From NCBI GenBank assembly GCA_036489885.1, contig DASXEW010000003.1, forward strand, positions 1,426,001-1,490,000: a stretch of DNA of 64,000 bases, in the 5' to 3' direction. The notes beneath the pieces are model-generated. The model had not been told where the DNA came from. It made no database searches and saw only the letters and a program-made list of their open reading frames with translations. The position numbers were made by a program, and so were the translations under genes. The DNA is from Candidatus Baltobacteraceae bacterium (GTDB taxonomy: Bacteria; Vulcanimicrobiota; Vulcanimicrobiia; Vulcanimicrobiales; Vulcanimicrobiaceae). This document shows, in pieces, positions 26,332-53,304 of this stretch; within the stretch, counting starts at the first letter, position 1; every line of letters starts with the position of its first letter.

Positions 26332-26366
26332 GTATCAGCTTCCCAAAAGGACTCTCTCCCGGCCCA

Positions 26367-27020: not shown

Positions 27021-27031
27021 GCCGGTTTGGT

Positions 27032-27217: not shown

Positions 27218-27264
27218 CTGCCTAGACCTCCATTAGCTTCTACGCCGGGGGCCGCCCAGAGGTT

Positions 27265-27810: not shown

Positions 27811-27868
27811 GATATGAGCCCGGACTACGCGAAAACCACCCGAACGTCTTGCGAGGAGCAAAGGGCCA

Positions 27869-29524: not shown

Positions 29525-30169
29525 ATGCTACAGATCGACACCCGCCCGCAACGCGTCGTCGTCATTGAATCGCAGGCACTCTTTGCCAAAGCCATTTGCC
29601 ACTTGCTTTCGACCGACGACGAGATCGAGATCTTGGGCGACTATCGCAATATAACGCTCGCCCCCTTATCGAACTTGCGACCCAATCTCTTACTGGTTGA
29701 CATGGAAGCGCACGCTTACGATCTCGCCGAGACGATCGCGCGTTGCCGCGAAACTCTTCCCCAGCTGCGCGTTTGCATTCTCTCGAGTCACCTCAATGCC
29801 GAGGCAATGCAGCGTTGTCTGAATGCCGGCGCTGATGGGTATCTTGTGACCGACATATCTCCGAGCGAGCTCAAACAGGCTGTAAAAGCCGTCTCATCAG
29901 GATCGTCCTATGTCGATCCACGCATCGCCGGAGGAGTGCTACGACGCCGCTCGACGATGAATGGTCGCGCCGACATCAACGAGCTCTCGATCCGCGAGAC
30001 GCAGATCATCCGCTACATTGCGCGCGGACTGTCGAACAAAGAGATCAGCTCCGAGCTGTTTCTCTCGGAACGCACCGTCAAGAACCACATCAGCCGCATC
30101 TTTTCCAAACTAAACGTTTCAGCGCGAACGCAGGCTGCTGTTTACGCGATCAAATCGGGCTTGGCGTAA
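29525..30169 (+). CDS. NarL/LuxR-type regulator with atypical receiver, paralogue 2
   Basis: A 214-residue paralogue of the regulator at 26367, alike in both domains ('CLNAGADGYL', 'YVDPRIAGGVLRRRS', 'IARGLSNKEISSELFLSERTVKNHISRIFSKL'). Its receiver is further altered: E15-S16 instead of the acidic pair, and T109 in the position of the invariant lysine ('LVTDISP'); D59 remains. Phosphorylation-induced switching is therefore unlikely in the standard form. It lies just upstream of the long polysaccharide operon and is a good candidate for its regulator. Confidence 0.85.
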   Translation: MLQIDTRPQRVVVIESQALFAKAICHLLSTDDEIEILGDYRNITLAPLSNLRPNLLLVDMEAHAYDLAETIARCRETLPQLRVCILSSHLNAEAMQRCLNAGADGYLVTDISPSELKQAVKAVSSGSSYVDPRIAGGVLRRRSTMNGRADINELSIRETQIIRYIARGLSNKEISSELFLSERTVKNHISRIFSKLNVSARTQAAVYAIKSGLA

Positions 30170-30279
30170 GCCTTCGGCACACTGACGGCTGCCACAAGTA
30201 CCCATGCCGACAGTTTGCTTGGCCCTAACGAACGCTGCGTGCGCCAAACTATACTGGCGCTGTTTCTGGAGCGCTTAAC

Positions 30280-35833: not shown

Positions 35834-36834
35834 GCCGCACCAAACCGTTGCTCGGCATCGCCGGCGCAGGCAAGTGGGGCGCAAATCACGTCGCGACCGC
35901 TGCGTCGCTTGGGGTGCTGGGCGCGATCTGTGACGCCGATTCGGCGCTACTCGGGAAGACGTGGGATAAACATCCTGAGGCAACGGCGACCCTCCGCTTC
36001 GACGAGCTTCTCCGGATGCCGATCGATGCGGTGGTCGTCGCGACTCCGGCGCAAACGCACGCCCAGCTTGCGCTGGCGGCAATTGCGGCCGGCAAGCACG
36101 TCTTCGTGGAGAAACCCCTTGCGCTGAGCGTCTTAGACGCGCAAATGATCGTTGCAGAGGCGCGGCGCAAGGGCGTTCACGTTTTCGTCGGTCACATCGT
36201 GCTCTATCAGCAGGGCGTGCGCGCCGTGCTGGAAGCCGTGCGAACCGGCATGGTCGGCGACGTGCACCACGTGCGCGCGCGCCGCGCGAGCTTCGGGCGT
36301 CTGCGCTTTGTCGAGGACGTGTGGTGGAGTTTTGCGCCGCACGACGTTGCGACGATGCTTGCCGTCATGGGCGAGGAACCGGTCGGTACCTCGATTGCGC
36401 GGCATAGCTTCGCAACGCCGGGCATTGCCGATTTTGCGTACGGTGATTTTCGTTTCTCCGGCGGACGTAGCGCGCACATCGAAGTGACGTGGCTCGACCC
36501 TCTCAAAAGCGCGTCGCTCGACGTGTTCGGCTCGGGCGGAATGCTGGCACTGCGCGAGCTCTCGGGTGAGACGCGCTTGGCGTACATCCCGTGTGGCGTC
36601 GATCGCAAAGAAGTTGCGCGCGCCGAGCTTTGGCGCGGCGAGGAAACGACCCACCGTTTCGAACGGGATGAGCCGCTGCGCACCGAGCTGCAAGCGTTCA
36701 TCGATCAAATCACGCACGGAACGCCGGTTCCTACGAACGGCGAGGCCGGGCTCGCAGTCGTGCGCGCGCTTTCGATGAGCGCATCGTCGGAACCGCAGAT
36801 CCTCCACGAGACCTATGAAAGGACACCGGTATGA
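35830..36834 (+). CDS. wbpB: Gfo/Idh/MocA oxidoreductase, WbpB-like
   Basis: A 334-residue NAD-dependent dehydrogenase. The Rossmann motif is '[12 protein letters not shown]' near residue 9; 'FVEKPLALS' near 95 carries the conserved E-K-P. In the WbpB role it oxidises C3 of UDP-GlcNAc-uronic acid to the 3-keto sugar. ATG 35830 overlaps the WbpA stop (ATGA); a longer open frame upstream lies inside wbpA. Confidence 0.87.
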
Positions 36835-37424
36835 GCGCGGTAGCCGCAATTGCGTCGCCGCTCGTGCACGCTACGGCGGTTGTCGACGACGACGTCGTGA
36901 TCGGCGACGGAAGCCGCGTGTGGCACTTCAGCCATCTTGGCAAGGGTTGCCGGATCGGCGAGCGTTGCTCGCTGGGACAGAACGTCTACGTTGCCCCAGG
37001 CGTCCGGATCGGCTCGAACGTCAAGATTCAAAACAACGTGTCGATCTACGAAGGCGTCGAGCTGCACGACGACGTGTTTTGCGGACCGAGCATGGTGTTC
37101 ACGAACGTGATCACACCGCGTTCAGCTTTTCCGCGCAACACGTCGGAGCATTATGCCAAAACGATCGTCAAGCGTGGCGCGACGATCGGTGCCAACGCGA
37201 CGATTGTTTGCGGCCACACGATCGGCGAATTCGGATTCGTCGGCGCCGGCGCCGTCGTTACGCACGACGTTCCACCGTTCGCGATCGTGGTCGGAAATCC
37301 AGCTCGTGTCATCGGTTACGCCTGCATGTGCGGTGCGCGTCTCGCACTCGAGCAAGGCGGTGCGCATTGCACCGGGTGCGCCAAACTTTATCGCAACAAC
37401 GACGGAAGATTACAGCCGAAATGA
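36831..37424 (+). CDS. wbpD: UDP-3-amino-sugar N-acetyltransferase, WbpD-like
   Basis: A 197-residue left-handed beta-helix acetyltransferase with many hexapeptide units ('[15 protein letters not shown]', '[15 protein letters not shown]', '[17 protein letters not shown]'). It ends with a cysteine-rich piece ('CMCGARL...CTGCAKLY') as in WbpD relatives. It would acetylate the 3-amino group made by WbpE. Translationally coupled on both sides by ATGA overlaps. Confidence 0.87.
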
Positions 37425-38542
37425 ACCAGATCCCAATCCTCGACTTGCGTTCGCAGCATCGCGCCATCCGCGAGGACCTTTTGGCTGCGGTTGAAGGCGT
37501 CATCGACAGCGGGCAGTTCATCCTCGGCCCGAACGTTGGTGCCTTCGAAGACGAGTTCGCAGCCTATCTCGGCGTCGAGCATGCGATCGGCCTGAACTCC
37601 GGAACCGATGCACTGCACTTGGCATTGCGTGCGCTCGACGTCAGTCCCGGCGACGAAGTCGTCACGACCACGTTTTCATTCATTGCAACCGCGGAAGCGA
37701 TCTCGATCGTCGGCGCGACGCCGGTCTTTGTCGACATCGATCCGCAAACGTGGCAGATCGACGCGAAGGCAGTAGAAGCGGCGATCACGCCGCGTACGCG
37801 CGCGATCATCCCGGTGCATTTGTACGGAGCGCCGGCGCCGATAGACGAGATCATGCGCATCGCGCAGGCCCACAACATCGACGTGATCGAGGATTGCGCG
37901 CAATCGGTCGCGGCGGCGATCGGCGGCAAGAAGACCGGGACGTTCGGGACGATTTCTGCCTTCAGCTTCTTTCCGTCCAAGAACCTTGGTGCGTGCGGCG
38001 ACGGCGGCGCGATCGTCACGGATCGAACCGATCTCGCACAGCGTATACGCGCGCTACGCGCGCACGGCGGCCGGAAGAAGTACTATCACGAGGAGATCGG
38101 TCTCAACAGCCGTCTCGACGAGATGCAGGCCGCGATCTTGCGGGTCAAGCTTCGTCACCTTGACGCATGGACCAGCTCACGGCGCGTCATCGCCGCGCGC
38201 TATAACGAAGGCTTCGCTGCCTCGGAAGACATCCAACAGCCGGTCGAAGAGAACGGCTGCTACAACGTCTATCATCAGTACACGATCGGCGTGGCAGAGC
38301 GCGACGCGCTTCAGGAACGCTTGCGTAACGCCGGCATCGCAACTGCCGTGTACTATCCCTTGCCGCTGCACTTGCAGCCCGCGTATGCCATGCTCGGTGG
38401 AAAAGAAGGCGACATGCCCTTCGCGGAAGCGGCTGCGAAAGCAGTGCTGTCACTCCCGGTCTCCCCCGACATGCCGGAGTCGGACCAAGATGTCGTCATC
38501 GAAGCCGTGCGTGAGCTGACCTTAACGTTGAGTGCTGCATGA
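37421..38542 (+). CDS. wbpE: DegT/DnrJ-type sugar 3-aminotransferase, WbpE-like
   Basis: A 373-residue PLP enzyme; K187 in 'FFPSKNLG' is the Schiff-base lysine. The opening '[13 protein letters not shown]' and the '[12 protein letters not shown]' segment are WbpE-like. It aminates the 3-keto uronic acid made by WbpB, with glutamate as donor. ATG 37421 is chosen for its ATGA overlap with the acetyltransferase stop; the frame is open further upstream. Confidence 0.88.
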
Positions 38543-39621
38543 GAACGATCACGGTCGTGGGCGCGCGGCCGCAATTCGTCAAGGCCGCGGTCTTGGCACC
38601 GGTTCTCGCACGCGCGGGCATCGCAGACTCGATCGTTCACACCGGACAGCACTACGATCGCAATATGTCCGACGTGTTTTTCGACGAGCTCGAGATTCCG
38701 GAACCCGCCTATACGCTCGGCGTCGGATCGGCGCCGCAAGGCGAGCAGACCGGGGAAATGATGTGCCGCATTGAGCCCGTTTTACTGCGGGAGCAGCCGG
38801 ACTGCGTCATCGTCTACGGGGATACGAACACAACGCTGGCGGCCGCGCTCGTAGCAGCGAAAATGTCGATCCCGATTGCGCATGTCGAGGCCGGTTGCCG
38901 CTCGTTCGATCGCTCCATGCCCGAAGAAGTCAATCGCGTCGTCACCGATCATCTCTCGACATTCTTGTTTGCTCCGACGGAAGTAGCGGCCGCGAACTTA
39001 TATGCGGAAGGCATCCGCAACGGCGTGCACGTCGTCGGTGACGTGACGATCGACCTCGCGCACGCCACCAGCGAGCGGCTTCCCGCGATGCCGAATATCT
39101 TGAGCCGCTGGCACGTACGTAGCGGAACGTATGCGTTTGTTACGATTCATCGTGCCGGGACTGCGAATGACGTCCTTGCATTCGAGCGTATCGTCGGAGC
39201 ACTGCGGCAGCTTGGAATGCCGGTTATCTTCGCGGCGCATCCGCGCGTGCGCCCGATGCTGGACGCGATGGGGGCCGGTATCGACGGCGATCCGATCGTG
39301 GTGACCGATCCGCTCTCCTACATCGAAACGATTGCGGCGGTTAAAAACGCGCGTGTCGTCATTACTGATTCCGGCGGATTGCAAAAAGAAGCCGCCGTCC
39401 TCGGTGTCCCATGCGTGACGGTGCGAAGCTCGACGGAATGGCTTGAGACCGTCCGGTCGGGGTGGAATGTGCTCGCGGGAACCGATCCCGAAGCGATCGT
39501 TTCGCTGGCTCACCGCGCGCGTCCCGAAACGCCCCTTCCTTATGTCTCCGATGGCCGAACGGCGGAGCGCATGGTTACGATTTTGCTCGAATCGCGGACG
39601 CCGATGCGAGAGATCGCATGA
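38539..39621 (+). CDS. wbpI: UDP-N-acetylglucosamine 2-epimerase, WbpI-like
   Basis: A 360-residue GT-B-fold epimerase. Recognisable: 'VVGARPQFVKAA', 'IVHTGQHYD', 'VEAGCRSFDRSMPEE' and 'TDSGGLQKEA'. It inverts C2 to give the manno form, UDP-ManNAc(3NAc)A, finishing the five-step pathway. ATG 38539 overlaps the aminotransferase stop. Confidence 0.9.
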   Translation: MRTITVVGARPQFVKAAVLAPVLARAGIADSIVHTGQHYDRNMSDVFFDELEIPEPAYTLGVGSAPQGEQTGEMMCRIEPVLLREQPDCVIVYGDTNTTLAAALVAAKMSIPIAHVEAGCRSFDRSMPEEVNRVVTDHLSTFLFAPTEVAAANLYAEGIRNGVHVVGDVTIDLAHATSERLPAMPNILSRWHVRSGTYAFVTIHRAGTANDVLAFERIVGALRQLGMPVIFAAHPRVRPMLDAMGAGIDGDPIVVTDPLSYIETIAAVKNARVVITDSGGLQKEAAVLGVPCVTVRSSTEWLETVRSGWNVLAGTDPEAIVSLAHRARPETPLPYVSDGRTAERMVTILLESRTPMREIA

Positions 39622-41072
39622 GAGACATCGTCGAAAATCCGCGCAACGCCAAGATACTAGCAGCATCGGGCGCGGCGGTGACGATGATCGGGCTGGCATT
39701 CGTGGTCGCGCACGGCACGCCGATCACATTTGCGCTCGGTCTCGCCGTCATTCTCGCGCTGCCGTTATTTTATCTTGCGATCGAGCGTCCGCTGCTGTTT
39801 CCCTTCGGACTCTACGCGGCGATGGTTCCGTTCGATGACATCCTCAACTTCGGTCACGTTGGAACGATCAACAAATTCATCGGCATCCTCGCGTTTGGCG
39901 CGATCCTGTTCATGATGCTGCGGCGCGGAGAGATCTCGAAGCCCTCGCCCGCAGTGCTGGCGTGGATGGCGCTCGGCGTGTGGATGGGGGTCAGCGGATT
40001 TTGGGCTCTCGACAGCAAGGCGTGGCTGCTCGCGTATCTGACATTCGCGCAGCTCTTCTTGCTCTACGCTTTGCTGACGCTGACGATCGCAACAAAGGAA
40101 GACATCCGGGCGCTGTGTACCGCAATCGTCGTTGGCGGAATGGCTGCGTCGGCGTTCGCGATCGGGCCGTTTATTCACGGCTTCAACGATAAGGGACGCC
40201 TGACGCTACCGGGCGGCAATCCGCACGATCCCGTCGACCCGAACCAGTTTGCGGCCGCGCTCTTGCTCCCGTTCGCGATCCTGTTTGCGACGACGCTTTC
40301 GACGAAGAAGGCCATGCCGCTTATCTTCAACATCGCCGGGCTCGCGCTGCTTGCGATCACGATCGTGTTGACCGGTTCGCGCGCCGCAATGCTTTCGCTC
40401 GTCGTCGTCCTGTTCTTCATGGTCATCCGCAGCCGGCATCGTGTCCTCGCGCTCGGACTGCTCGTGGTTTCTGCGGGGGCGGTCGTTCCGTTCGCCATGA
40501 AGGTTCAGGAGCGTTTCTCGAGCGCGATCTCGAGCGGCGGCGCGGGGCGCGAAGACATCTGGAAGGTCGCGATCATCGCGCTCAAGCAGCACTGGCTGTT
40601 TGGCGCGGGCTTCGCGTCGTTCCCCGCCGCCTACGACAGCGCCGTGCTGCAGGCGCCCTTGCAGATGTATGTAGGCTGGCACCGGGCACCGCACAATCTC
40701 GTGATCGCAACCAGCGTTGAGTTGGGTATCGTGGGGATTGTGCTCGTCGCTTTGGCGTTATTCATGGAGTACCGCAACATGGCGCGGCTTCCGCGCATCG
40801 GCGGCTTCATGGACGAACTGCGCGTCGCGTTTCAAGCCACGCTGCTCGCGATCTGTCTCGATGCTCTTTTCCTCGACCTCACCAACCGCAAATATCTCTG
40901 GCTTCTATTTATCATGATGGCCTTGCTGAGATCGACCGTCCTCAATGAGGCGGCGTCTCGGCGTGACCGAAGGAGAACCACGTGCGTAGCAAGTTCCTTG
41001 CCTATTCCCGACCGGACATCGGACCAGCCGAAATTGCACGAGTCACCGAATCTCTTACAAACGGCTGGTTGA
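39618..41072 (+). CDS. O-antigen polymerase/ligase-like membrane protein (Wzy candidate)
   Basis: A 484-residue polytopic protein with ten or more hydrophobic segments and the Wzy_C-type loop 'GREDIWKVAIIALKQHWLFGAG' plus 'GWHRAPHNL'. It likely polymerises lipid-linked repeat units on the periplasmic side, with the Wzx at 51970. ATG 39618 overlaps the epimerase stop. Its last 30 codons overlap the next gene by 91 bases, an unusually long same-strand overlap, and encode a polar tail. Confidence 0.8.
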   Translation: MRDIVENPRNAKILAASGAAVTMIGLAFVVAHGTPITFALGLAVILALPLFYLAIERPLLFPFGLYAAMVPFDDILNFGHVGTINKFIGILAFGAILFMMLRRGEISKPSPAVLAWMALGVWMGVSGFWALDSKAWLLAYLTFAQLFLLYALLTLTIATKEDIRALCTAIVVGGMAASAFAIGPFIHGFNDKGRLTLPGGNPHDPVDPNQFAAALLLPFAILFATTLSTKKAMPLIFNIAGLALLAITIVLTGSRAAMLSLVVVLFFMVIRSRHRVLALGLLVVSAGAVVPFAMKVQERFSSAISSGGAGREDIWKVAIIALKQHWLFGAGFASFPAAYDSAVLQAPLQMYVGWHRAPHNLVIATSVELGIVGIVLVALALFMEYRNMARLPRIGGFMDELRVAFQATLLAICLDALFLDLTNRKYLWLLFIMMALLRSTVLNEAASRRDRRRTTCVASSLPIPDRTSDQPKLHESPNLLQTAG

Positions 41073-42151
41073 CGACGGGCCCGAGCGTGAAAGCGCTCGA
41101 GGACGGATTCGTCAAGGCCTCAGGAATTGCGCATGCCGTGGCGCTGAACAGTTGCACGGCGGGTCTGCATCTCGGATTGGTCGCGCTCGGCGTCGGTCCG
41201 GGAGATGAGGTCGTCATGCCGTCGTTGACGTTCGTTGCGGGAGCGCAGTGCGCACGCGAGATCGGCGCGATTCCTGTCTTTGCAGATATCGATGAACGTA
41301 CGCTGACCGTAACGGCCGAAACGGTCAAAGCCGTTACGACGCAACGCACGCGTTGCATCATGCCCATGCACTATGCGGGACGCCCTGCACCCGTCGACGA
41401 GATCGTCGAGTTCGCGCGTCCGCGCGGGATTCGCGTGTTGGAAGACGCCGCGCATTCTGTTGGGATGCTCAGTGGCGGAGCCTGGGCCGGCGCTAATTCG
41501 GATGGTGCAGCCTATAGCTTTTATCCGACCAAAAACATCACGAGCGGCGAAGGCGGATTGTACCTCACGAACGATGCCGAGATCGCGGCGCGCATTCGGC
41601 GTCTCTCGCTGCACGGCATGAGCCGCGATGCGTGGAAGCGTTACACGGCCGGTGGTGGTTGGCGTTACGACGTCGTCGAACTCGGCTACAAATACAACTT
41701 GCCGGATCTCGGTGCGGCAATCGCCGTTGCGCAAATGGAACGGCTCGAAGAGCTGCAAGAAGCCCGCGAAGCGCTCGCGCGTCTGTATCTCGACCGTCTT
41801 GCCGATCTGCGAGGCATTACTCCCCTCACCGAGTTCGTCGATGAACCCGATCGCCATGCATGGTGCATGTTCGTCGTTCGCGTCGATCCTCGAACCGCGG
41901 GAATAACGCGCGATGCGATGATCGACGAACTGCGCGCAGCGAATATCGGAACGAGCGTTCACTATATTCCAACGCATCAGTTTACCGCCTATAAAGATTT
42001 GCCGGCCGACGTTCCGGTTACGGACCGCGTATGGGAGCAAATCCTCTCGCTGCCGCTGTATCCGACGATGACCGAACGCGACGTCGATGACGTCGTCGAC
42101 GCTCTCAGGGGCGCAACGAGAGCACGTCGTCTTGCGGAAAACGTTGCCTGA
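40982..42151 (+). CDS. DegT/DnrJ/EryC1 sugar aminotransferase
   Basis: A 389-residue PLP enzyme with K184 in 'FYPTKNITSGEGG', closer to ArnB/PseC/PerA types than to the WbpE-like neighbour. GTG 40982 has AGGAG 9 bases upstream and lies within the end of the polymerase gene. It probably makes a 4-amino-4,6-dideoxy sugar from the CapD-like dehydratase product. It is the last gene before a strong terminator. Confidence 0.87.
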   Translation: MRSKFLAYSRPDIGPAEIARVTESLTNGWLTTGPSVKALEDGFVKASGIAHAVALNSCTAGLHLGLVALGVGPGDEVVMPSLTFVAGAQCAREIGAIPVFADIDERTLTVTAETVKAVTTQRTRCIMPMHYAGRPAPVDEIVEFARPRGIRVLEDAAHSVGMLSGGAWAGANSDGAAYSFYPTKNITSGEGGLYLTNDAEIAARIRRLSLHGMSRDAWKRYTAGGGWRYDVVELGYKYNLPDLGAAIAVAQMERLEELQEAREALARLYLDRLADLRGITPLTEFVDEPDRHAWCMFVVRVDPRTAGITRDAMIDELRAANIGTSVHYIPTHQFTAYKDLPADVPVTDRVWEQILSLPLYPTMTERDVDDVVDALRGATRARRLAENVA

Positions 42152-42397: not shown

Positions 42398-44137
42398 TTG
42401 AGAGGGCGCATATCCGTATGCGGCGCGCTTTGTGCTGTGCTGCTTACTGTGGGTTGTTCACATTCGTCGGGAGGAGGTGGCAGCCAATTGCCTGCTACCC
42501 CGCTCCAAACCGGGGAAAATGGAGGCGCTGCGCGTTCCGCGATGAGCGTGAGTGTAAGCGGCTCGACTGCGACGGTAACCGGCACCATCACGAGCGGCAA
42601 CAAGTTTGAATTCGTACTGAACGCGGGCTCAGGTTGTGGAAACGTTCCTATCCTCACGAACAGCGCAACTGCCTGGAGCACGAATGGTCTCAGTGTAACC
42701 TCTGGGACGGCGGCGACCGTGCTCGGTGAAGGGAGCTGCGCGACATCATTCACGGCCTCATCCGTGACCTTGGGGAGCGGAAGCAGCACCCCAAATCTCG
42801 CGGGGACGATAAACTCGACCGGCACCGACACGATCAATGTCGCCGGAGCCAACGGCTGCGGCGCGGTCAACGTAAATTACAGCTCAAGCACCGCGATCAC
42901 GTACAACGGTAATTCGCTCGCAAAAGGCGTCCCAATTTCCGTTTGGGGCTCCGGGAGCTGCGCCACATCGTTCACCGCTACGACGATAACGCTGGGATCG
43001 GGAAGTTCGAGCGCGTCAACGACCTCGATGACGCACGTGCTGACCGCGGATTATCTTGGCGGCTATTCCGGAACGAACACCGTTACCGCGGCGCAAGCCG
43101 CGCCGTATCTGAGCTGGGCGTCGACGTCGACTGCCGATTCGAGTGGAATCTCGAAAGCGGGCATCAAGACGATGATGTATCTCAGTCCGACGCGTCAAGC
43201 TACCACGGATCCGCTCTACTCATCCCATGCCTTTGCGTACGCATGCGGCGGGAGCACTATTGCCATTCCGTACAACAGCACCACCACGTTCTATCTTATG
43301 AATCCCGCTTCGACTACTCTGCAAAGCGCAATGAATGCATGGGCTAAAAACGAGCAGAGCGAAGGTCACTTCGACGCCTTCTTCTTGGACGACATGGACG
43401 ACTTATATTCCGTTCCGTCCACGCCGTGCAATGTAACGTCATCGGAGTGGGATTCCGAAAACTGGACGCTGATCTCGTCCTTCAACTATCCTGTTATATT
43501 CAACGGCTACGCAATATCTTCGGATAGCGAAGCGCTCATCGGTGATTCCCGCGTGACCGGAGCAATGGTCGAAGAGTGTTATGGCCGCGTCTCCAATCCA
43601 ACGCCACCCTACTCGACCGGCTCGTACTGGACAGAGGACGAAAATCTGCAAATTTCGGCCGCAAAAGCCGGTAAGATGTTTTTCTGCTACAATAACGGCG
43701 CGTACGCTTCGCAGTCGTATATTCAGCTGCGCGAATACATCTACGCCTCATTCCTCCTGACGTATTCCCCGAGCTCATCCGTCTTGTGGGAATCGCTGGC
43801 GACGACGAGCGGCTTGCACGTTTTTCCGGAAACGAAGCTCGTTCCGACGAGTCCGTACGTGGCCGCGAGCACGGTTTCTGCGCTCGAGACGTCAAGTGGT
43901 CTTTACGCTCAAGAGTACGCAGCCTGTTATCTAGCCGGCCAGAGCGTCGGTCCGTGCGCGGTCGTCGTAAATCCAAACTCGTCCGGCTCTCTCGCGTTTC
44001 CGTCCCTCAGACATACGTACAAGCACACGATGGCCCTGAGTGGTGAGGGTGTGCTGGACGGAGGCTCAGTTTCAGTGACGGGATCTGCACCGCCGGCCTC
44101 CGTAGCGCCCGAAACGGGGTTAGTCGTCCTAGAATGA
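42398..44137 (+). CDS. Secreted 'IDD' family lipoprotein, paralogue 1
   Basis: A 579-residue predicted lipoprotein, start TTG 42398 with AAAGGGAGA upstream; lipobox 'LTVGC' with Cys20. Two stalk repeats (about 58-127 and 134-201) share 'GSCATSFTA' and a 'CG..NV'-like segment. The main domain (212-579) has 'FDAFFLDDMDDLY' near 325-337, 'VEECYG', 'YIYASFLL', 'LHVFPETKL' and the common end 'EYAACYLAGQSVGPCAVVVN...VLDGGSVSVTG'. It is the most diverged member and has 'YLGGY' where the others have 'YCCxGY'. The acidic motif at a strand end recalls TIM-barrel glycosidases, but no family was recognised. Confidence 0.7.
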   Translation: MRGRISVCGALCAVLLTVGCSHSSGGGGSQLPATPLQTGENGGAARSAMSVSVSGSTATVTGTITSGNKFEFVLNAGSGCGNVPILTNSATAWSTNGLSVTSGTAATVLGEGSCATSFTASSVTLGSGSSTPNLAGTINSTGTDTINVAGANGCGAVNVNYSSSTAITYNGNSLAKGVPISVWGSGSCATSFTATTITLGSGSSSASTTSMTHVLTADYLGGYSGTNTVTAAQAAPYLSWASTSTADSSGISKAGIKTMMYLSPTRQATTDPLYSSHAFAYACGGSTIAIPYNSTTTFYLMNPASTTLQSAMNAWAKNEQSEGHFDAFFLDDMDDLYSVPSTPCNVTSSEWDSENWTLISSFNYPVIFNGYAISSDSEALIGDSRVTGAMVEECYGRVSNPTPPYSTGSYWTEDENLQISAAKAGKMFFCYNNGAYASQSYIQLREYIYASFLLTYSPSSSVLWESLATTSGLHVFPETKLVPTSPYVAASTVSALETSSGLYAQEYAACYLAGQSVGPCAVVVNPNSSGSLAFPSLRHTYKHTMALSGEGVLDGGSVSVTGSAPPASVAPETGLVVLE

Positions 44138-44141
44138 AAAT

Positions 44142-45650
44142 CTAAGGCAACAAAATATACGCACTCAAGCCTGGAATAGTTGACGGCACGGCGGCGCCGG
44201 TTAGTGACACGGTTCCGCCGTCGAGAACGCTCAGTTGATTGCTGATCGTCATCGTATGACCGTAAGTTCCATTAAGCATTGGTTTCGCGTGCGCGCTCGA
44301 GGACGGATTCACCACGAACGCGCACGCGCCGACGCTCGTTCCGTTGTAAAAGCAGCTCTGATATTCGCGGAAATACGTTCCGGCGGGATCTTGCAGCGCA
44401 CCGATGCCGGGCGAAGTCGACGGGTACGTGACGATCGGGTTGTACGCGGTGAGCTCTTCTTCGGGGAAGACGTGAATCTGCGGGTTCGTCGAGTTCGGAT
44501 TCTTGCCGTTGCCGGGATAACCGTAGTAGTCGTTCTGATAAGCGGTGTAGACCGGGTCCCAGACCAGCATGAAGGATGCAAACGCGTAGGTTCGCGCGGT
44601 ATACGACATCGCGCCGGTCGAGATCGAATCTTGATCTTGCAGCAAGTAGAGCTTTTGAGCGTTTACCGTGGCAATCTCGGCGTCTTCGGTGACGATCCAT
44701 TGATTCACCAGCTCGCCGCTCGTATTCAGGCCAATGATCGCATTCTTCGTATCACCCAAGCACTCGTCGCACACGAATCCGAACACGTTTGCAAGGCCGG
44801 TGAACTGGTTGATCGCGTTGGCAATGTTGGCGGTGCTGCCGCCGGCCTGGATCGTGATCGCCGAGAGCGCATTGAGCAGGTACTTTGGCGCCGTGTGCCC
44901 GGCGAGTAAGCCGGCGACGCTCATCGAATCGACGATCGCCGCGTAGGCGGTCGAAGATGCCGGCTCCGACCACTGTATGCCGTTGTGGCACGGCAAATCG
45001 TTGTTGTCGTTGTAGAGGTAGGCGTTGACGTCGTCTATGAAGACGATGCCGAACTCGGTGCTATAGTTGTATTGCGTTGTTACGTCGTTGTCGTATAACG
45101 CGAGCGCAGCCGGTTGCCATGGATCAGACAGATAACCGTTGCTGTTCTTTTCCGTGACTGGGTTGCCGGCGCAATCCAAAGCTTCAGCGCTCGCGTCGAG
45201 CCCGCCGGGCTTGATGTTGTTGAACTGCGCATCACCTGAATACACGTGCGAGTCGTCGATGTAGGCGTAGACGTGACTGGCGGAGACTCCGGCCGCCGCG
45301 AGTCCGGGCGTTCCGTAGCTCGGATACGTTCCGGTCGGATCGTTATTCGGAGACGGCGCTGCGAAATACGTGATCCATGGTTTCGCCGCTGCGACGCCAC
45401 CGGACGGTGTGTCGCTCGTGTAACCGCCGCAGCAGTAGTCAAAACTTTGCACATGCGTGAGCGCGTTTGGCGTAGGAGTAGCACCAGACTGTGACGTAGG
45501 TGACGTTCCTGGTGTGTTTTGTGTCACAGGGATGTTGTTTGCGACACTCGAGTGCGAGCCCGATCCTCCAGCGCCACCGCAACCGAAAACGGACACGAAC
45601 ATAAATCCGAGTAGGAACGCCAGTCTAAGCCGTCTTCGTAACAGCGACAT
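44142..45650 (-). CDS. Secreted 'IDD' family lipoprotein, paralogue 2
   Basis: A 502-residue lipoprotein with lipobox 'VFGC' (Cys24), a Ser/Thr/Pro linker without stalk repeats, and the full domain from about residue 65. Marks: 'FDYCCGGYTSDTP' (C73, C74), 'FGIVFIDDVNAYLY', 'CDECLGDTKNAI', 'YAFASFMLVWDPVYTAYQ', 'HVFPEEELTAYNPIV', and the end 'GAYILLP'-like 'SAYILLP'. It is strikingly close to paralogue 3 and lies in opposite orientation, their 5' ends facing a 354-base gap. Its 3' end is 4 bases from paralogue 1. Confidence 0.72.
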   Translation of the reverse strand: MSLLRRRLRLAFLLGFMFVSVFGCGGAGGSGSHSSVANNIPVTQNTPGTSPTSQSGATPTPNALTHVQSFDYCCGGYTSDTPSGGVAAAKPWITYFAAPSPNNDPTGTYPSYGTPGLAAAGVSASHVYAYIDDSHVYSGDAQFNNIKPGGLDASAEALDCAGNPVTEKNSNGYLSDPWQPAALALYDNDVTTQYNYSTEFGIVFIDDVNAYLYNDNNDLPCHNGIQWSEPASSTAYAAIVDSMSVAGLLAGHTAPKYLLNALSAITIQAGGSTANIANAINQFTGLANVFGFVCDECLGDTKNAIIGLNTSGELVNQWIVTEDAEIATVNAQKLYLLQDQDSISTGAMSYTARTYAFASFMLVWDPVYTAYQNDYYGYPGNGKNPNSTNPQIHVFPEEELTAYNPIVTYPSTSPGIGALQDPAGTYFREYQSCFYNGTSVGACAFVVNPSSSAHAKPMLNGTYGHTMTISNQLSVLDGGTVSLTGAAVPSTIPGLSAYILLP

Positions 45651-46004
45651 CGCCCCAAAAAATTCGGTCTACAAACGAGCGGGCTTTAGCAAACGTTCTT
45701 CGACTTTGTAAAGCAGCCGCTAAGAAATACTGAGATCGATCGGGCGCTAGTTTGCACGCTTAGTAGTCAAGCATGCGCCCTCAAACCCTTGCTGCATAAG
45801 GGTTTTTCGAAAGCTTTTCGATTTCGTCGAGCGATTGCTTGCCTCTATGACGGCCAAGTATGGTCGTCCTAGACATCCAAATCGAACCCATTAGTAACTT
45901 ATAGTGGCAGGCTGCGCGGCGTTCTCTTAGAGACTCCGCCTATCGTGCTTGGTCACGATACCTGTTACACGCAATGCCGCTTTAAAAAGTGGAGGACTTT
46001 CAGC
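45651..46004. promoter_or_regulatory. Divergent control region with a terminator-like hairpin
   Basis: A 354-base gap between paralogues 2 and 3. AAACCCTT (45783-45790) and AAGGGTTT (45798-45805) form an 8-base stem with a 7-base loop, followed on the plus strand by TTC and a further T-rich run. This looks like an intrinsic terminator or attenuator about 200 bases before the paralogue 3 start. GGAGG at 45991 is its ribosome site. Promoter boxes could not be assigned. Confidence 0.45.
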
Positions 46005-48266
46005 GTGGCGCGATGGTTGAAGGTGTCCTGGGTTACAGCCGGCCTCTGTTTTCTATTTCTGGCCGCATGTTCCGAAGGTTCGCATACCACGTTTCCGATG
46101 ACGGCAAGTAATGCGAGTCTCGGTAACGTCAACGGGGTTCGAACGACTGCTAGTGTGCAACTACCAGCAGTTGCCGGCACGATTCAAACCGTCAGCCCGT
46201 CGCAAATCAACATTTTGGCGCCTGCACCGTGTGGACACGTCAACGTCACCTACAGCGGTTCGACACAAATTGTTTATAACGGCTACACGCTAAGTGCCGG
46301 TACGTACGTGAATGTGTACGGAACCGGAAGTTGCTCGACGTCGTTTACGGCGACGGAGCTGTTCTTGGGAACGGCGACTCCTACGCCGGCACCGACGCCA
46401 TCGCCGACTCCGACCGGCGTTCCCGCCTTAACCGCGACAATTCAGACCGTCAGCCCGACGAAGCTCAACGTCCTGGGGCCGGCACCGTGCGGTCACGTCA
46501 ACGTCACCTACGGAAGCACGACACAGATCGTCTATAACGGCTACACGCTCGCGGCCGGCACCGTCGTCAACATTTACGGCACCGGCAGCTGCGCGACGTC
46601 GTTCACTGCGACGGCGCTTGTGCTCGGCACGCTGCCGACTCCGTCGCCGACGCCAACGGCAACGCCGACGCCCTCACCGACAAGCCCGCCGTTGCTCACG
46701 GCGACGATTCAATCCGTAACCGACTCGCAGCTGAAGGTGCTCGCGCCTGCGCCCTGCGGTCACGTTAACGTGAATTACGGACCCACGACCCAGATTAACT
46801 ATTACGGTTACACGTTGGCTCCCAACGTTATCGTCAACGTCTGGGGCAGCGGCAGCTGTGCAACCTCGTTCACGGCCACGATCATGACTCTCGGCGTGCT
46901 GCCGAATCCGACCCCAACGCCGTCACCGCCGCCGGTGAACAATCCGCTCAGTCACGTGCAAACCTTCGACTATTGCTGCGGTGGCTATAGTAACGACACG
47001 CCGACGGGCGGCGTCGCGACGGCGAAACCCTGGATTTCGTACTACGCAGCGCCGTCTGCGAACGGCGATCCGAGCGGAACGAATCCGACCTATGGCGCAC
47101 CCGGGCTCCAAGCTGCCGGAATCCCAGCCAGCCGCGTCTACACGTATATCGATGACTCACATGTCTACTCAGGCGATGCGCAATTCAGCAACGTCGCGCC
47201 CGGCGGCATCGACGCAAGCGCCGAAGCCAAGACCTGCGCCGGCGCTGCGATCACAGAAAAGAGCGGCGCCGGCTATCTCACCGATCCGTGGCAACCCGCG
47301 ACACTGACGCTGTACGACAATGATGTCACCACCCAATACAACTACAGTACCGAGTTTGGGATGGTGTTCATCGACGACATGAATGCGTACATCTATAACG
47401 ACAACAGCGCAATGCCGTGTCACAACGGCGCACAGTGGTCACAGCCGACGGCGTCGGCCGCCTACGCCACGATCGTGAATTCGATGACCGTCGCGAACCT
47501 ACTCGCGGGTCATCCGGCACCTGCGTACATGCTCAACGTGCTCTCGCCGATCGAGATCGAAGCTTCCGGCAGCATACCCAGCATGTCCAGCATGATCACT
47601 TCCTTCTCGGGTCTCGCAAACGTCATGGGCTTCACGTGCGACGAATGCTTGGCCGACAACAAGAACGCGATCATCGGTCAAAACACGGCGACCGAGATGA
47701 AAAATCAGTGGAGCATGACGGAGAACGCTGAGATCGCAACGGTCAACACGCGCAAGCTCTACGTCCTGCTCGATCAAGATTCGTCGTCGCGCGGCACATA
47801 CTCGTATGCGGGCCGCACGTACGCCTTCGCCTCCTTCATGTTGGCATGGGACCCCGTCTACACTGGGTATCAAACCGCATACTACGGTTTTCCGGGGAAC
47901 GGCACCAACCCGAACTCGGCAAATCCGCAGATCCATGTCTTCCCCGAAGAAGCGCTGACGGCGTACAATCCGATCGTTCCGTATCCGTCGACTTCGACCG
48001 GCGCTGCGGCCTTCCAAGACACCGGCGGAGCATTCTTCCGCGAATATCAGAGCTGCTTCTACAACGGCACGGCCATCGGCGGATGCGCGTTCATCGTGAA
48101 TCCGAATGCAAGCTCTGTCGGGACGCCGTCGCTGAAGGGCACGTACACGCATACGATGGTCATCAGCAGCGAGAACAGCGTCCTCGACGGTGGTACGGTC
48201 TCGCTTACGGGCGCGAGCGTTCCATCCTCAATCCCTGCCCTTGCTGGTTATATCCTATTGCCGTAA
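46005..48266 (+). CDS. Secreted 'IDD' family lipoprotein with three stalk repeats, paralogue 3
   Basis: A 753-residue lipoprotein. GTG 46005 is preceded by GGAGGA and gives a proper lipoprotein signal with Cys22 in 'LFLAAC'; the earlier ATG 45945 would add 20 unlikely residues. Three repeats of about 65 residues joined by Thr-Pro linkers lead to the main domain (about 317-753): 'FDYCCGGYSNDTP', 'FGMVFIDDMNAYIY', 'CDECLADNKNAI', 'YAFASFMLAWDPVYTGYQ', 'HVFPEEALTAYNP', 'FREYQSCFYNGTAIGGCAFIVN', 'VLDGGTVSLTGASVPS'. The stalk suggests presentation away from the outer membrane. Function unknown; a polysaccharide hydrolase or lyase is possible. Confidence 0.75.
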   Translation: MARWLKVSWVTAGLCFLFLAACSEGSHTTFPMTASNASLGNVNGVRTTASVQLPAVAGTIQTVSPSQINILAPAPCGHVNVTYSGSTQIVYNGYTLSAGTYVNVYGTGSCSTSFTATELFLGTATPTPAPTPSPTPTGVPALTATIQTVSPTKLNVLGPAPCGHVNVTYGSTTQIVYNGYTLAAGTVVNIYGTGSCATSFTATALVLGTLPTPSPTPTATPTPSPTSPPLLTATIQSVTDSQLKVLAPAPCGHVNVNYGPTTQINYYGYTLAPNVIVNVWGSGSCATSFTATIMTLGVLPNPTPTPSPPPVNNPLSHVQTFDYCCGGYSNDTPTGGVATAKPWISYYAAPSANGDPSGTNPTYGAPGLQAAGIPASRVYTYIDDSHVYSGDAQFSNVAPGGIDASAEAKTCAGAAITEKSGAGYLTDPWQPATLTLYDNDVTTQYNYSTEFGMVFIDDMNAYIYNDNSAMPCHNGAQWSQPTASAAYATIVNSMTVANLLAGHPAPAYMLNVLSPIEIEASGSIPSMSSMITSFSGLANVMGFTCDECLADNKNAIIGQNTATEMKNQWSMTENAEIATVNTRKLYVLLDQDSSSRGTYSYAGRTYAFASFMLAWDPVYTGYQTAYYGFPGNGTNPNSANPQIHVFPEEALTAYNPIVPYPSTSTGAAAFQDTGGAFFREYQSCFYNGTAIGGCAFIVNPNASSVGTPSLKGTYTHTMVISSENSVLDGGTVSLTGASVPSSIPALAGYILLP
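46176..46898 (+). repeat. Three in-gene stalk-domain repeats
   Basis: Units at about 46176-46370, 46434-46631 and 46701-46898 encode about 65 residues each with the pattern 'TIQTV.....L.VL.PAPCGHVNV' ... 'NGYTL..G..VNVYGTGSC.TSFTAT...LGT'. Each has two cysteines, perhaps a disulfide. The spacers code for Pro/Thr/Ser-rich linkers. The pattern resembles DUF5666-like OB folds. Confidence 0.75.
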
Positions 48267-49231
48267 GCCTGGCCCGGCGCGCGGTGAACAAGTAGGCCTT
48301 TCAACCAACCGAGTCCATACGAAACGTGCATCGTTAGAAGCACGAACGGCATCAGCATTGCGAGCGCACCCAATTTCGGAGTTGCGGCCGCGCTCGCTGC
48401 CGCCGTGAAACACGCGTAGGCGCCCGGGACGAGCCAGCAGAGCGGCTGCGGCGCTATCGCCGAAAGTGCAAGGCCGAGCACGAGTGCCGGCGGAGCAAGG
48501 ACACGGAAGGGGATGCGCGCCCCGAAATTCAGCTGGCTTTTTCGGCGCCAGAAACCGTAGCGGAACATCTGCGAGGCAAGCTCCGGAAGCGTGCGCCGAA
48601 CATGGTAGCGGCAACGCAGCTTCGGACTCGTTGCGAGCTTGTAACCTGCAGCACGCAAACGCAAGTTGAGGTCGGTGTCTTCATCGAAGGGGACATCTTC
48701 GTTGAAGCCGCCGATCTCGAGCAGAACGTCACGGCGAACGAAGCCGACCAGAACCGAATCGACGTAGCGTTCATCATCGACGTAACGGAACGTGGCGTCG
48801 CCGACGCCGTAAGGCGACGACATTGCGTACGCGATCGCTCGTCCGATGGTACCGTCGCCGAGTGCCTTCGGCGTTCCGCCGACGTTCGCCGCGTCGAGAC
48901 GCTCCGAGAGCGCAATTGCTTGCGCGATGTAGTCATCGCCGTATTCCGCGTGGGCAACGACAAACATGACGTACGTTCCGTTGGCAGAACGAATGCCTTG
49001 ATTGTAGGCAAAGACTTGAAATCGCTTGGGATTCTCGATCAGGCGAATCGTCGACCCGAATTCCGGATGCGAACGGACGATCTCCGCTGTACGATCGGTG
49101 CTGCCGCCGTCTACGACCAACACCTCGAGCTTGCCGTGCATGTCGCGTTGCTCGAGCAACTCGCGCAAACAGCGCTCGATGTGCCGCTCTTCGTTGAAGG
49201 TGGCAACGACCGCGGTAACGAGCGGAGTCAT
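48248..49231 (-). CDS. Family 2 glycosyltransferase, ExoA-like
   Basis: A 327-residue GT2 with N-terminal catalytic domain ('VVATFNEERHIERCL', 'VVDGGSTDRT') and about three C-terminal membrane segments (245-310). The metal-binding segment reads 'VVAHAEYGDD' where an aspartate usually precedes the 'AH', a point to check. 'GFNEDVPFDEDTDLNLRL' is the usual ED acceptor region. ATG 49231 overlaps the stop of paralogue 4 (ATGA). Its 3' end overlaps paralogue 3 by 19 bases. It builds the repeat unit on the inner face of the membrane. Confidence 0.85.
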   Translation of the reverse strand: MTPLVTAVVATFNEERHIERCLRELLEQRDMHGKLEVLVVDGGSTDRTAEIVRSHPEFGSTIRLIENPKRFQVFAYNQGIRSANGTYVMFVVAHAEYGDDYIAQAIALSERLDAANVGGTPKALGDGTIGRAIAYAMSSPYGVGDATFRYVDDERYVDSVLVGFVRRDVLLEIGGFNEDVPFDEDTDLNLRLRAAGYKLATSPKLRCRYHVRRTLPELASQMFRYGFWRRKSQLNFGARIPFRVLAPPALVLGLALSAIAPQPLCWLVPGAYACFTAAASAAATPKLGALAMLMPFVLLTMHVSYGLGWLKGLLVHRAPGQAYGNRI

Positions 49232-50484
49232 CGCGTGAGTATGTATCCCGTGGTAGGCGCGAGCGATCCCGGCATCGGAGGTCCGTCGAAGGACAGGGTG
49301 CCGCCTTCGAGGACCATGCCGCCGTGTAGAGCCGCCGTGTGATTGTAGTTTTGCGCGAGGTGCGGCCGTGAGCGCGCCGCCGACCGATCGCTGTTGACGA
49401 CGAACGCGCAGCCGCCGATCGGCGAGCGCCGGTAGTAACAGTGCGCGTATTCACGCACGTACGTTCCGGCGGGGTCACGCAGCTCATCGACCGATTCGAT
49501 GTTGCCTTTGAGCGGATCGTGCGCTACGAGCTGTGTCTCCGGGGTCACGTGCAGCTGGCCGGCTTGATTCGGAGCGTATGCCGTTTGATACACCGAGAAC
49601 TTGGGATCCCACGCCAGCATGTAGGACGCGAAGGTGTATGCGCGCGCGGCCGGATTGTTCGCGATATAGCGCACGTAGAGCCAAAAGATCTTGCGCATGC
49701 GCTCGGTCTTGATCTCGAGGCCGAGATCGTCGCGCCACTCCGTATCGTAGGTTACCTTATCCGGTTTGTTGCCTGCGAAGCACTCCTCGCACATTCCGCC
49801 GAGCACGTTCGCGGGTTTGAGCATCGCGAGCGGGACCGTATATTGGTCGCCCTTGTCGACGTAGTCCGAGAGTCCGTTGAAGATCAAATTGGGGACGATC
49901 GAGCGTCCAGCGACCTGGATGCGCGCGGCAGCTAGAAGTGTCGCGTCTTGCTCTGCTGTAGCCGGCTCGGGCCATGGCGTATTCCCGATGCACGGCGGTC
50001 CGTTTGTCAGGCCGTAACGATACGCGTCGGCATCGTCGATGAAGTACGCGTTGTAGGCCGGATAGTAACGGTACGCAAGCTCTTCGTCCAGCAGATTGAG
50101 CGTTTGCGGCGAGCGCGGGTTGGTCAGATAGCCGGGCGGCGATTCAGTACGGATCAACACTCCGCCGCAATTGGTTGCGCGCGTCGCAGCATACTTACCG
50201 CCGTCAACGGCAGCATACAGATGATCGCCCTGATAAACTTTGAAGACGTCGACGTAACGGTAGATGTTTTGGATTCCGGCCGCGCGATCGGCGTCCGCCC
50301 CCGGATTGTCGGGCGTCGCCGCCCACGTGAGGTACGGCGCCGCCGACGAGGGTGCGACCGTGTCGTTTGCGTAGCCGTGGCAACAGTAAGCTGCGGTCGG
50401 AACGTGCGCTTCAACCGGGACCGCTGCAGTTGCAGGGCGGCCAACCAGAAGTGCGGTTGCAAGTAAGAGTCCGAGTACGCGCAC
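49228..50484 (-). CDS. Secreted 'IDD' family protein, paralogue 4
   Basis: A 418-residue exported protein with a cleavable signal ('RPATAAVP') and no lipobox or stalk repeats; start GTG 50484. Family marks: 'YCCHGYANDT' (C34, C35), 'AAPYLTWA' as in paralogue 1, 'YNAYFIDDADAYRYG', 'CEECFAGNK', 'YTFASYMLAWDPKFSVYQ', 'HVTPETQLVAHDP', 'YVREYAHCYYRRSPIGGCAFVVN' and the end 'TTGYILTR'. It is probably soluble in the periplasm. It is co-translated with the ExoA-like glycosyltransferase, the best evidence that this family belongs to polysaccharide biology. Confidence 0.75.
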   Translation of the reverse strand: MRVLGLLLATALLVGRPATAAVPVEAHVPTAAYCCHGYANDTVAPSSAAPYLTWAATPDNPGADADRAAGIQNIYRYVDVFKVYQGDHLYAAVDGGKYAATRATNCGGVLIRTESPPGYLTNPRSPQTLNLLDEELAYRYYPAYNAYFIDDADAYRYGLTNGPPCIGNTPWPEPATAEQDATLLAAARIQVAGRSIVPNLIFNGLSDYVDKGDQYTVPLAMLKPANVLGGMCEECFAGNKPDKVTYDTEWRDDLGLEIKTERMRKIFWLYVRYIANNPAARAYTFASYMLAWDPKFSVYQTAYAPNQAGQLHVTPETQLVAHDPLKGNIESVDELRDPAGTYVREYAHCYYRRSPIGGCAFVVNSDRSAARSRPHLAQNYNHTAALHGGMVLEGGTLSFDGPPMPGSLAPTTGYILTR

Positions 50485-50592: not shown

Positions 50593-52014
50593 ATGGTCGC
50601 AACTGCCTTAGACTCTCGCTCGCCCGAAGAATCACTTCGTGGAAACGGCGCAACCTCGCTGCGCCACTATTCCGCGCGTTGGCAGGCGGTTATCATGGCC
50701 GTCGACATCGTCGCGTTCTTTGCGTCGTTCTACGTCGCCATGGGGCTCGTCAACCACACGTGGACGTTCCGCAATTTTATCTCGATCGTCGAGGTCGCCG
50801 GCTGGCTTTCGATCGGGATGTGGATTGTGATATTCGCGCGGGTCGGTATGTATCGCCGCTCGCTTGCGCTCAACTCGCGCGACGAGATCTATTACACGAT
50901 CGCAGCACTTTCGCTCGGAATTTTGCCGCAGCTGATTCTGTTTACGATCGTCCCCTCGCTCTCGACGTCGCGCCTCTTGTTGCTCGTCGCCGTATGCCTT
51001 GCGACGCTCGGCGTCGGAGGCGCGCGTGCCGTCGTCCATCTTGCAATTCGCATTCAGGAGGATCGCACGTTCAGGCGGATCTTGGTCGTTACGCCGAGTC
51101 ATGTACCGACGATGCTCGGTAACGACGGTGGAATGCCGAGCCAGTGGAGCCTCTTGCCGTACCGTTCCAACATCGAGCAGGCCTCCGGAAATTCGCCGGA
51201 AGCGATCGTCGAGCGCATCGCCTGGTTTCGCGCCGCGGCGCGTGATGGTTGCGATATGGTTTTGGTCGAAGGGCTGTTGCCGCCGCTGGCTGCGGCGCAT
51301 GTTGCGGATTTAGCCGCGCGCGGGGGTGTCGAATTGCGATTTGCGCCACCCGAGCTGCAGGCGAGCGCATTCGAAGTGCGGATCGACCGTCGCGGTGGAC
51401 AGACACTGCTGATGCCGGTGCCGCTCGGCGTACTGAGCCCGCCGGCGGAATTTTGCAAATCGCTGCTCGATCGCTCGGTCGCGTTCATCGCGTTGTGCGC
51501 GCTTTCGCCGTTGCTGGTGGCGACTGCGGTTGCAATTCGTCTGGAAGGTCCCGGGCCGGCCCTCTTCCGACAGCTTCGTGTCGGGCGCAACGGACGCTCG
51601 TTCAATGTGTTCAAGTTCCGCTCGATGCGTCTCGATGCCGGCGAAAACTGGGCGACGACAAACGATGACCGCGTCACTCGTGTGGGCGCATTCATTCGAA
51701 AATATAGCATCGATGAGCTGCCGCAGCTGCTCAACGTTCTGCGCGGAGAGATGTCGCTGGTCGGGCCGCGTCCCGAGATGCGTGAATACGCCGACCGTTT
51801 CAGCATGCAGTTCCCGCGGTATGCCGACCGGCATCTCGTCCGTCCGGGAATCACGGGTTGGACGCAAATCAACATGCGCCGCAACTTGACGCCGAGCGAC
51901 GTCGAAGAAGTTCTCGAGAGCGACCTCTTTTATATCGAGAACTGGTCGTTCTTGCTCGATCTCTCGATTCTATTCAAGACCGCTTGCGAGATTTTCTTCC
52001 ACCGGGGAGTTTAG
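50593..52014 (+). CDS. Polyprenyl-phosphate sugar-1-phosphate transferase (full-length)
   Basis: A 473-residue initiating enzyme. An N-terminal membrane domain of about four segments and a CoA-binding-like region are followed by a membrane segment near 290-315 and the catalytic domain: 'GPALFRQLRVGRNG', 'VFKFRSM', 'KYSIDELPQLLNVLRGEMSLVGPRP', 'VRPGITGWTQIN' and 'DLFYIENWS'. It loads the first sugar phosphate on undecaprenyl phosphate. It is the intact counterpart of the protein at 23035. The 3' end overlaps the convergent flippase gene by 45 bases. Confidence 0.9.
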   Translation: MVATALDSRSPEESLRGNGATSLRHYSARWQAVIMAVDIVAFFASFYVAMGLVNHTWTFRNFISIVEVAGWLSIGMWIVIFARVGMYRRSLALNSRDEIYYTIAALSLGILPQLILFTIVPSLSTSRLLLLVAVCLATLGVGGARAVVHLAIRIQEDRTFRRILVVTPSHVPTMLGNDGGMPSQWSLLPYRSNIEQASGNSPEAIVERIAWFRAAARDGCDMVLVEGLLPPLAAAHVADLAARGGVELRFAPPELQASAFEVRIDRRGGQTLLMPVPLGVLSPPAEFCKSLLDRSVAFIALCALSPLLVATAVAIRLEGPGPALFRQLRVGRNGRSFNVFKFRSMRLDAGENWATTNDDRVTRVGAFIRKYSIDELPQLLNVLRGEMSLVGPRPEMREYADRFSMQFPRYADRHLVRPGITGWTQINMRRNLTPSDVEEVLESDLFYIENWSFLLDLSILFKTACEIFFHRGV

Positions 52015-53304
52015 CCGCTTCGAAAGATACGAGGAGATCAGCCTGCGGTATCCGTGGAGATCTTCGGGCTGCACGCAAGCGACGTGCCACAACGGCACTT
52101 TCGCCTGGATCGAGAAGATGATCATGCTCGCGATGACGGTCGAAATGTACGATACCGTCGTTCCGATTGCGGCGCCGACGATCCCGATGCGCGGGATCAG
52201 AATCAGACTGATCGCGGCACAGATGAATGCGGAAGCGCCGGCGATGATGAGCGGATATTGCGGCTTTTTCGCATTGAGCGTGTAGTAGCTCGAGATGATG
52301 CTCGCGGCGGACATCGGAATGATGCCGATCAGCAACACGCGTAGCGGCGCGACGGCGGGTAGAAATGCCGGCCCGAACAGCAGCTCGACGGCGGCCGGCG
52401 CGACCAGTGCGGCGACGATGCACAGCACGGTGATGAACGCGAAGTTGTTGCGCACGCAGCGAGCCGTGAGATGCGCCGCTTCGCGCGCGCCGAGCGAACC
52501 GATGTGCGGGACGGTAACGATCGAGCCGACTTGTGCGGCGACCAGTAACGTCTCGGCGGCGGATACGGCGGTTGAATAAAAACCGAGCTGGCTGTGCGAG
52601 GTGAAGAACGCGACCATGTACAGGTCGATGCGGTAGTTAAGGATGGAGACCAGGCCAATCGCGCCGATGCGAGCCGCATATGTCAAGAACGCCCACGTCG
52701 CAATGGGTCCGGTCGCCATCCCGCGTGCGCTCCAAAGCACGACGCAGATGGCGACGAGTCCGACGAAGACGTTGCCTGCAAACCACGATTCGATTGCGAC
52801 GTTTGCGGTACGCCCGACAAAGAGTAAGCCGGCTGCCAAGCAGATGAAGATTGCGATGTTCGTCGCCAGCGTGAAAAGCGTGACTAGCCGCGGATTCTTC
52901 ACGCCGTAGCCGTAGCCGTTGACGATGGCGATGAGCGCCATGAAGGGCAGCACGATCGCTGCGTACGGTGCCGCCCACAGCTGATTCGTCGCGACCGTAA
53001 TCGCCATGACGACGACGATTCCGGTCGCGACCATCGGAACGGCGGCCGCAAACGCAGCCCGGATCGCACCGGAGCCGGCACGGTCCTTTAACATCGACGA
53101 TGCAATCGTCGTCGTCAGTCCTGCGAACACGGTTGCAACGAGGCCTGCGAGCATGCCCGGCACCACATACGTGCCGCGGCCCTCCGGGCCGAGCATCCGT
53201 GACACAAAAATACTGACGCCTGCTGCACAGACCAAGTTGAGGACGCGGACGATCAGAATCTGAAAGCCGTCCGCGAACAGCGTCTTGGCCTTCACGGCGG
53301 ACAT
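51970..53304 (-). CDS. Wzx-like polysaccharide flippase
   Basis: A 444-residue membrane protein with about 12 hydrophobic segments and an opening typical of MATE/Wzx proteins ('VSIFVSRMLGPEGRGTYVV' near residue 30). It should flip lipid-linked repeat units across the inner membrane before polymerisation by the Wzy candidate at 39618. It lies alone on this strand, its tail inside the end of the sugar transferase gene. Confidence 0.85.
   Translation of the reverse strand: MSAVKAKTLFADGFQILIVRVLNLVCAAGVSIFVSRMLGPEGRGTYVVPGMLAGLVATVFAGLTTTIASSMLKDRAGSGAIRAAFAAAVPMVATGIVVVMAITVATNQLWAAPYAAIVLPFMALIAIVNGYGYGVKNPRLVTLFTLATNIAIFICLAAGLLFVGRTANVAIESWFAGNVFVGLVAICVVLWSARGMATGPIATWAFLTYAARIGAIGLVSILNYRIDLYMVAFFTSHSQLGFYSTAVSAAETLLVAAQVGSIVTVPHIGSLGAREAAHLTARCVRNNFAFITVLCIVAALVAPAAVELLFGPAFLPAVAPLRVLLIGIIPMSAASIISSYYTLNAKKPQYPLIIAGASAFICAAISLILIPRIGIVGAAIGTTVSYISTVIASMIIFSIQAKVPLWHVACVQPEDLHGYRRLISSYLSKRLNSPVEENLASGLE

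Follow-up and report, generated by a model that had tools for sequence, protein, structure and literature searches.

What is the role of four paralogous exported proteins encoded within a polysaccharide locus of a Candidatus Baltobacteraceae bacterium? The genes, designated here P1 to P4, lie in a 64,000-nucleotide stretch of contig DASXEW010000003.1 (positions 1,426,001 to 1,490,000 of the forward strand; hereafter the window), and an initial annotation, made from the sequence, described their products as an unrecognised family, suggested a TIM-barrel glycan enzyme with the aspartate of an IDD motif in its active site, and tied their role to the exported polymer. All four open reading frames are confirmed in position and strand (Table 1). 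We propose that P1–P4 are probably exported glycoside hydrolases that branch off deeply within the GH168/GHL15 superfamily and act on the Wzx/Wzy polymer of their own locus. The homology of the proteins, their predicted fold, the conservation of the catalytic pair and the linkage to polymer genes are established by computation, and are presented below together with the alternatives.

Paralogy, export signals and predicted fold

A search of the genome (3.48 Mb) with P4 matches exactly four copies, all within one 8 kb stretch, and E values of 2e-56, 1e-53 and 4e-36 to P3, P2 and P1 respectively leave the previously noted paralogy in no doubt. The four proteins share the motifs [FLI]DD, xEC, F/YASxxLxxxP, HVxPE and CA[FV]xVN...L[DE]GGT, so those quoted in the initial annotation are real. 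P2 and P3 are 69–71% identical and their DNA forms a 1.32 kb inverted repeat (44143–45463 and 46945–48265, 73%); a phylogeny of 66 copies groups P2, P3 and P4 together (support 100/99) and places P1 in another lineage. The placement of P1 outside this clade and the inverted repeat of P2 and P3 indicate that the four-copy set arose from no fewer than two older lines, to which an inverted duplication was added recently. Such multi-copy expansion is not special to the window, since a single 20 kb polysaccharide locus of a relative (L065) carries five family copies, on both strands.

Inspection of the sequences agrees with the description of three lipoproteins and one soluble protein: the signal sequences of P1, P2 and P3 end at a Cys, with a good lipobox in P3 (LAAC) and weaker ones in P1 (TVGC) and P2 (VFGC), and P4 has a Sec-type signal without Cys. 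P3, for which an alternative start is present at 45945, carries DUF5666 repeats in its N-terminal third (three repeats by Pfam). Within P3 a DUF5666 repeat is also apparent at the DNA level as two copies at 46174–46646 (215 nt, 74%).

AlphaFold models of P2 (predicted local distance difference test, pLDDT, 80.6; predicted template modelling score, pTM, 0.86) and P1 (pLDDT 91.3, pTM 0.90) are both (beta/alpha)8 barrels with a short antiparallel beta part at the C-terminal end. Every listed GH168 structure matches both models over the whole length of the fold, with Z scores of 19.4–22.3 for P2 over residues 6–445 (317–332 residues aligned, root-mean-square deviation [rmsd] 3.7–4.1) and, with the same set, 20.3–23.1 for P1 over residues 10–379 (288–301 residues aligned, rmsd 3.2–3.7). 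These structures are endo-1,3-fucanases (Fun168A 8ya6, Fun168D 9joc, Fun168E 9jom, PbFucA 8rg3/8rg5, and Muricauda 9nhf), and the acids predicted to be catalytic in P1–P4 appear to occupy matching positions. The next group of folds comprises GH191 (TM1410, Env), GH114 (Ega3, F. solani) and GH166 (the hydrolase domain of PelA), all of which have a barrel with an Asp/Glu pair. These score at Z 14–17 and match mainly in the barrel, mostly without the C-terminal part; for the P1 model GH191 comes next after GH168 (Z 17, barrel only). As closest fold the GH114/GH191/GH166 group was therefore placed behind GH168, its Z scores being 4–6 lower. Models of viral proteins included in the comparison gave generic barrel matches only.

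Two acids are predicted to be catalytic, an Asp that closes strand beta4 and a second residue at the end of beta6. In the P1 model the conserved Asp follows beta4 (127–130) and the conserved Glu ends beta6 (186–192), and over 67 copies the beta6 acid is Glu in 60 and Asp in seven, P2 and P3 among the latter. In the profile alignments the beta6 acid falls on a Glu of L035, and this Glu in turn corresponds to residue 279 of the 8ya6 chain; that residue is E264 given a 15-residue construct offset, deduced from residue ranges. The beta4 Asp aligns in hhalign with the GHL15 Asp of FVD and may correspond to D206. For FunA the listed active-site residues are D206 and E264 (PMC11943901), and in GH114, GH191, GH166 and GH135 enzymes, too, the nucleophile is an Asp and the acid/base a Glu (PMC12054363). 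The two models, the structure comparison and the profile-profile mapping to GH168 catalytic residues support the suggestion that these are TIM-barrel glycan enzymes whose active site includes the IDD aspartate. The Asp after beta4 would then act as nucleophile and the Glu ending beta6 (Asp in P2 and P3) as acid/base; we infer catalytic activity and retaining chemistry, with internal cutting of alpha-linked polymers the expected reaction.

A branch beside GHL15 and GH168

Searched directly, P1–P4 match nothing over the barrel in either Pfam or NCBIfam, P4 has no PDB match by sequence, P2 has no match among plasmids or phages, and none of the four matches PF14885 GHL15 (hypothetical glycosyl hydrolase family 15) even at E 10. 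The label of unrecognised family thus stands for the four proteins taken directly, but not for the family as a whole, because some of its relatives do match Pfam GHL15, a family that overlaps with GH168 of CAZy. The curated PF14885 cut-off of 27 bits, which P1–P4 do not reach, is passed by the relative L014 (29.2 bits) and some further relatives, with others near it, and four of 24 family members match the profile (best 2e-7). Alignment of the family profile with a GHL15-type profile built from seven proteins of the same phylum gives an hhalign probability of 96.8 and an E value of 2.7e-10 over 268 columns; with only three GHL15 sequences on the other side, the probability was as low as 8. GHL15-type profiles in turn match GH168 crystal chains with E values of 7e-61 to 5e-31, and one of the matched chains is itself named a GHL15 protein, so GHL15 and GH168 overlap; judged by these profile comparisons, the P1–P4 family is a divergent branch beside both.

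Copies of the family are present in 40 of 98 sampled genomes, all of the class to which the window genome belongs, and in none of 19 genomes from other classes of the phylum. A contig search with a profile of ten closer members identified nine loci, eight of them titled Eremiobacterota, Eremiobacteria or Eremiobacter, and the branch is apparently lineage-limited. The window genome encodes a further GHL15-type lipoprotein outside the window (L040 1360–3000; C3:974859–976499), which aligns with L037, L038 and L041 of relatives and has the same Asp/Glu pattern, and which falls in a separate branch of the superfamily. A Laminin_G_3 (concanavalin-like lectin) domain precedes the barrel in the family member at L007 1–2010, and L039 appears similar by eye.

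Linkage to polymer genes and proposed role

We compared 38 family-bearing regions of approximately 20 kb, all outside the window, with 32 control regions chosen at round-number positions, for the most part in the same genomes, and scored a region as linked when it contained three or more of the following: Wzy, Wzx, initiating transferase, Wzz and glycosyltransferases. Linkage is seen in 24 of the 38 family regions and none of the controls (Fisher p 2.8e-9), and in 19/20 versus 0/11 when counted by genus; for family f1, 17 of 20 regions are linked. A wzy gene was detected in 22 regions and is no more than 2.2 kb from a family copy in 19 of these, and all 27 family copies within 4 kb of wzy are transcribed from the same strand. 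The gene order wzy-DegT-family recurs in other genera, and in the window P1 keeps both this order and the wzy strand, with P2 and P4 on the opposite strand. The association with wzy in relatives lends support to the idea that the family's role is tied to the exported polymer.

From these data we infer the substrate and physiological role of P1–P4 to be the local Wzx/Wzy polysaccharide and its processing. Three of the proteins would probably be lipid-tethered to a membrane and one free, and their action could trim chain length, release polymer from the cell, or clear stray polymer from the periplasm. An exported hydrolase-like gene is conserved beside the polymer assembly genes, as in the functional class of hydrolases of exopolysaccharide loci. 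PelA, also exported, is a hydrolase whose gene belongs to an exopolysaccharide locus, and its hydrolysis produces the secreted form of Pel (PMC9894940), although Pel is synthase-dependent and the P1–P4 locus is of the Wzx/Wzy type. In Pseudomonas aeruginosa the glycosyl hydrolase gene pslG is co-transcribed with the psl genes of its polysaccharide locus (PMC9075953), which we take as a functional precedent only. Processing is tentatively favoured over the anchoring or recognition that the initial annotation also considered.

Several observations weigh against this interpretation or set the family apart from GH168. Identity to the GH168 enzymes is 9–15% in the structure comparison, with no direct sequence match, and the substrate is consequently not transferable from GH168. 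GH168 enzymes degrade sulfated fucan, whereas the P1–P4 family occurs in Eremiobacterota polymer-biosynthesis loci and has extra N-terminal regions and conserved cysteines. Since neither of its profiles, A4 and A2, matches a GH168 chain at E 10, the family is not filed as GH168 proper. At beta6, P2 and P3 carry Asp in place of the Glu of nearly all relatives, and may have altered activity as a result. Finally, 14 of the 38 regions, mostly of family f3, have fewer than two polysaccharide-assembly genes per 20 kb and mixed neighbours, so the association with a local polymer does not hold throughout, and the proposition that every copy lies in a polysaccharide locus was rejected.

The unlinked regions fit an alternative in which these are exported hydrolases degrading foreign polysaccharides, for nutrition or competition, and the neighbourhoods are islands of surface genes exchanged together; the closest structures, the GH168 fucanases, do degrade algal and invertebrate fucan (PMC11943901). 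We regard this as unlikely, since a wzy gene so close by and on the same strand in many genera is not needed for catabolism, most f1 regions are linked, and no sugar-uptake genes were seen adjoining the window copies in the Pfam annotation of the neighbourhood. That the barrels are catalytically dead or weak and bind, anchor or display the polymer, with the lipoproteins as tethers, would accommodate the lipoprotein-like character of three of the four, the DUF5666 repeats of P3 and similar ones in P1, and the beta6 Asp of P2 and P3, but strict retention of both acids (66/67 and 67/67 diverse copies) is unexpected of a pure binder, and we think this a little less likely again. Ligation in such polysaccharide systems is normally a membrane step of the WaaL type, which argues against retaining transglycosylases that move chains onto an acceptor (a lipid, a protein or another chain) in a ligase-like or remodelling role. 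This last alternative appears very unlikely, even with wzy consistently adjacent and with a GH168 enzyme, FunA, that transglycosylates and for which a retaining mechanism has been hypothesised (PMC11943901).

Hydrolysis of the local polymer is therefore the explanation we prefer. A more elaborate form of it, possible but doubtful, is a dedicated Eremiobacterota family of Wzx/Wzy enzymes that edits or transfers chains after Wzy (controlling their length, releasing them or attaching them to a surface acceptor by transglycosylation), with paralogues diversified in each locus, some using an Asp acid/base, and fitted to different linkages of one polymer. A hydrolase in a polysaccharide locus and the GH168/GHL15 fold are each already known. 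In the part of the literature covered, we found no description of this branch, its diversification or its Wzy-linked context, and work naming both GH168 and exopolysaccharide concerned fucoidan degradation only; a GH168/GHL15 superfamily branch associated with making a polymer, and not with breaking one down, is apparently new. It takes a fold known from fucan breakdown into loci of polymer biosynthesis, offers a testable function for a secreted family common in the sampled genomes of an almost uncultured phylum, and provides a Wzy-linked case for the question, raised in PMC9075953, of what need a cluster that synthesises a polysaccharide has of a hydrolase gene.

The surrounding polysaccharide locus

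Pfam confirms the polysaccharide setting noted earlier, the surroundings of P1–P4 being a Wzx/Wzy-type locus (Table 1). The nucleotide-sugar genes encode a UDP-sugar 6-dehydrogenase, a Gfo/Idh oxidoreductase, a hexapeptide acetyltransferase, a DegT aminotransferase and a UDP-GlcNAc 2-epimerase, and there are two DegT aminotransferases in the locus. By analogy with the established Wbp pathway, this set suggests that the polymer contains a diacetamido-uronic acid.

Table 1. Coordinates of the P1–P4 genes, their predicted catalytic residues and the neighbouring polysaccharide genes, as positions in the window.
Feature	Coordinates	Strand	Remarks
Export part of locus	25333..32517	+	Pfam
Poly_export/SLBB, Wza-like	25333-26253	+	Part of export section
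Wzz/BY-kinase-like	30280-32517	+	Part of export section
Nucleotide-sugar genes, WbpABDEI-like set	34475..39621	+	Pfam
Wzy-type polymerase / O-antigen ligase family PF04932	39603..41072	+	Most consistent neighbour of the family
DegT/DnrJ aminotransferase	40982..42151	+	Between wzy and P1
P1	42398..44137	+	Lipoprotein-like, exported; C-terminal GH168/GHL15-like barrel ~42998-44134; predicted dyad D331/E392
P1 N-terminal region	upstream of barrel	+	DUF5666-like repeats, judged by eye
P1 Asp331	43388..43390	+	Predicted catalytic Asp, end of strand beta4; kept in 66/67 aligned copies
P1 Glu392	43571..43573	+	Predicted catalytic acid/base, end of strand beta6; acidic in 67/67
P2	44142..45650	-	Lipoprotein-like, exported; GH168/GHL15-like barrel; predicted dyad D206/D295 (Asp replaces usual Glu)
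P3	46005..48266	+	Lipoprotein; GH168/GHL15-like domain ~46944-48263; inverted duplicate of P2; predicted dyad D457/D546
GT2 glycosyltransferase	48248..49231	-	4-base overlap with end of P4
P4	49228..50484	-	Non-lipidated, exported; GH168/GHL15-like; predicted dyad D150/E233
Initiating sugar-phosphate transferase, Bac_transf PF02397	50593..52014	+	Pfam
Wzx-like flippase	51970..53304	-	Labelled by sequence appearance; no Pfam match at E 1e-3

A second Bac_transf protein is encoded near the Wza-like gene (23035–24234) and matches positions 95–175 only of the profile. The 53400–55616 gene encodes a GT4-type glycosyltransferase joined to a GNAT/FemAB acyltransferase part, homologues of which recur near the family in the relatives L044, L047, L050, L058 and L073.

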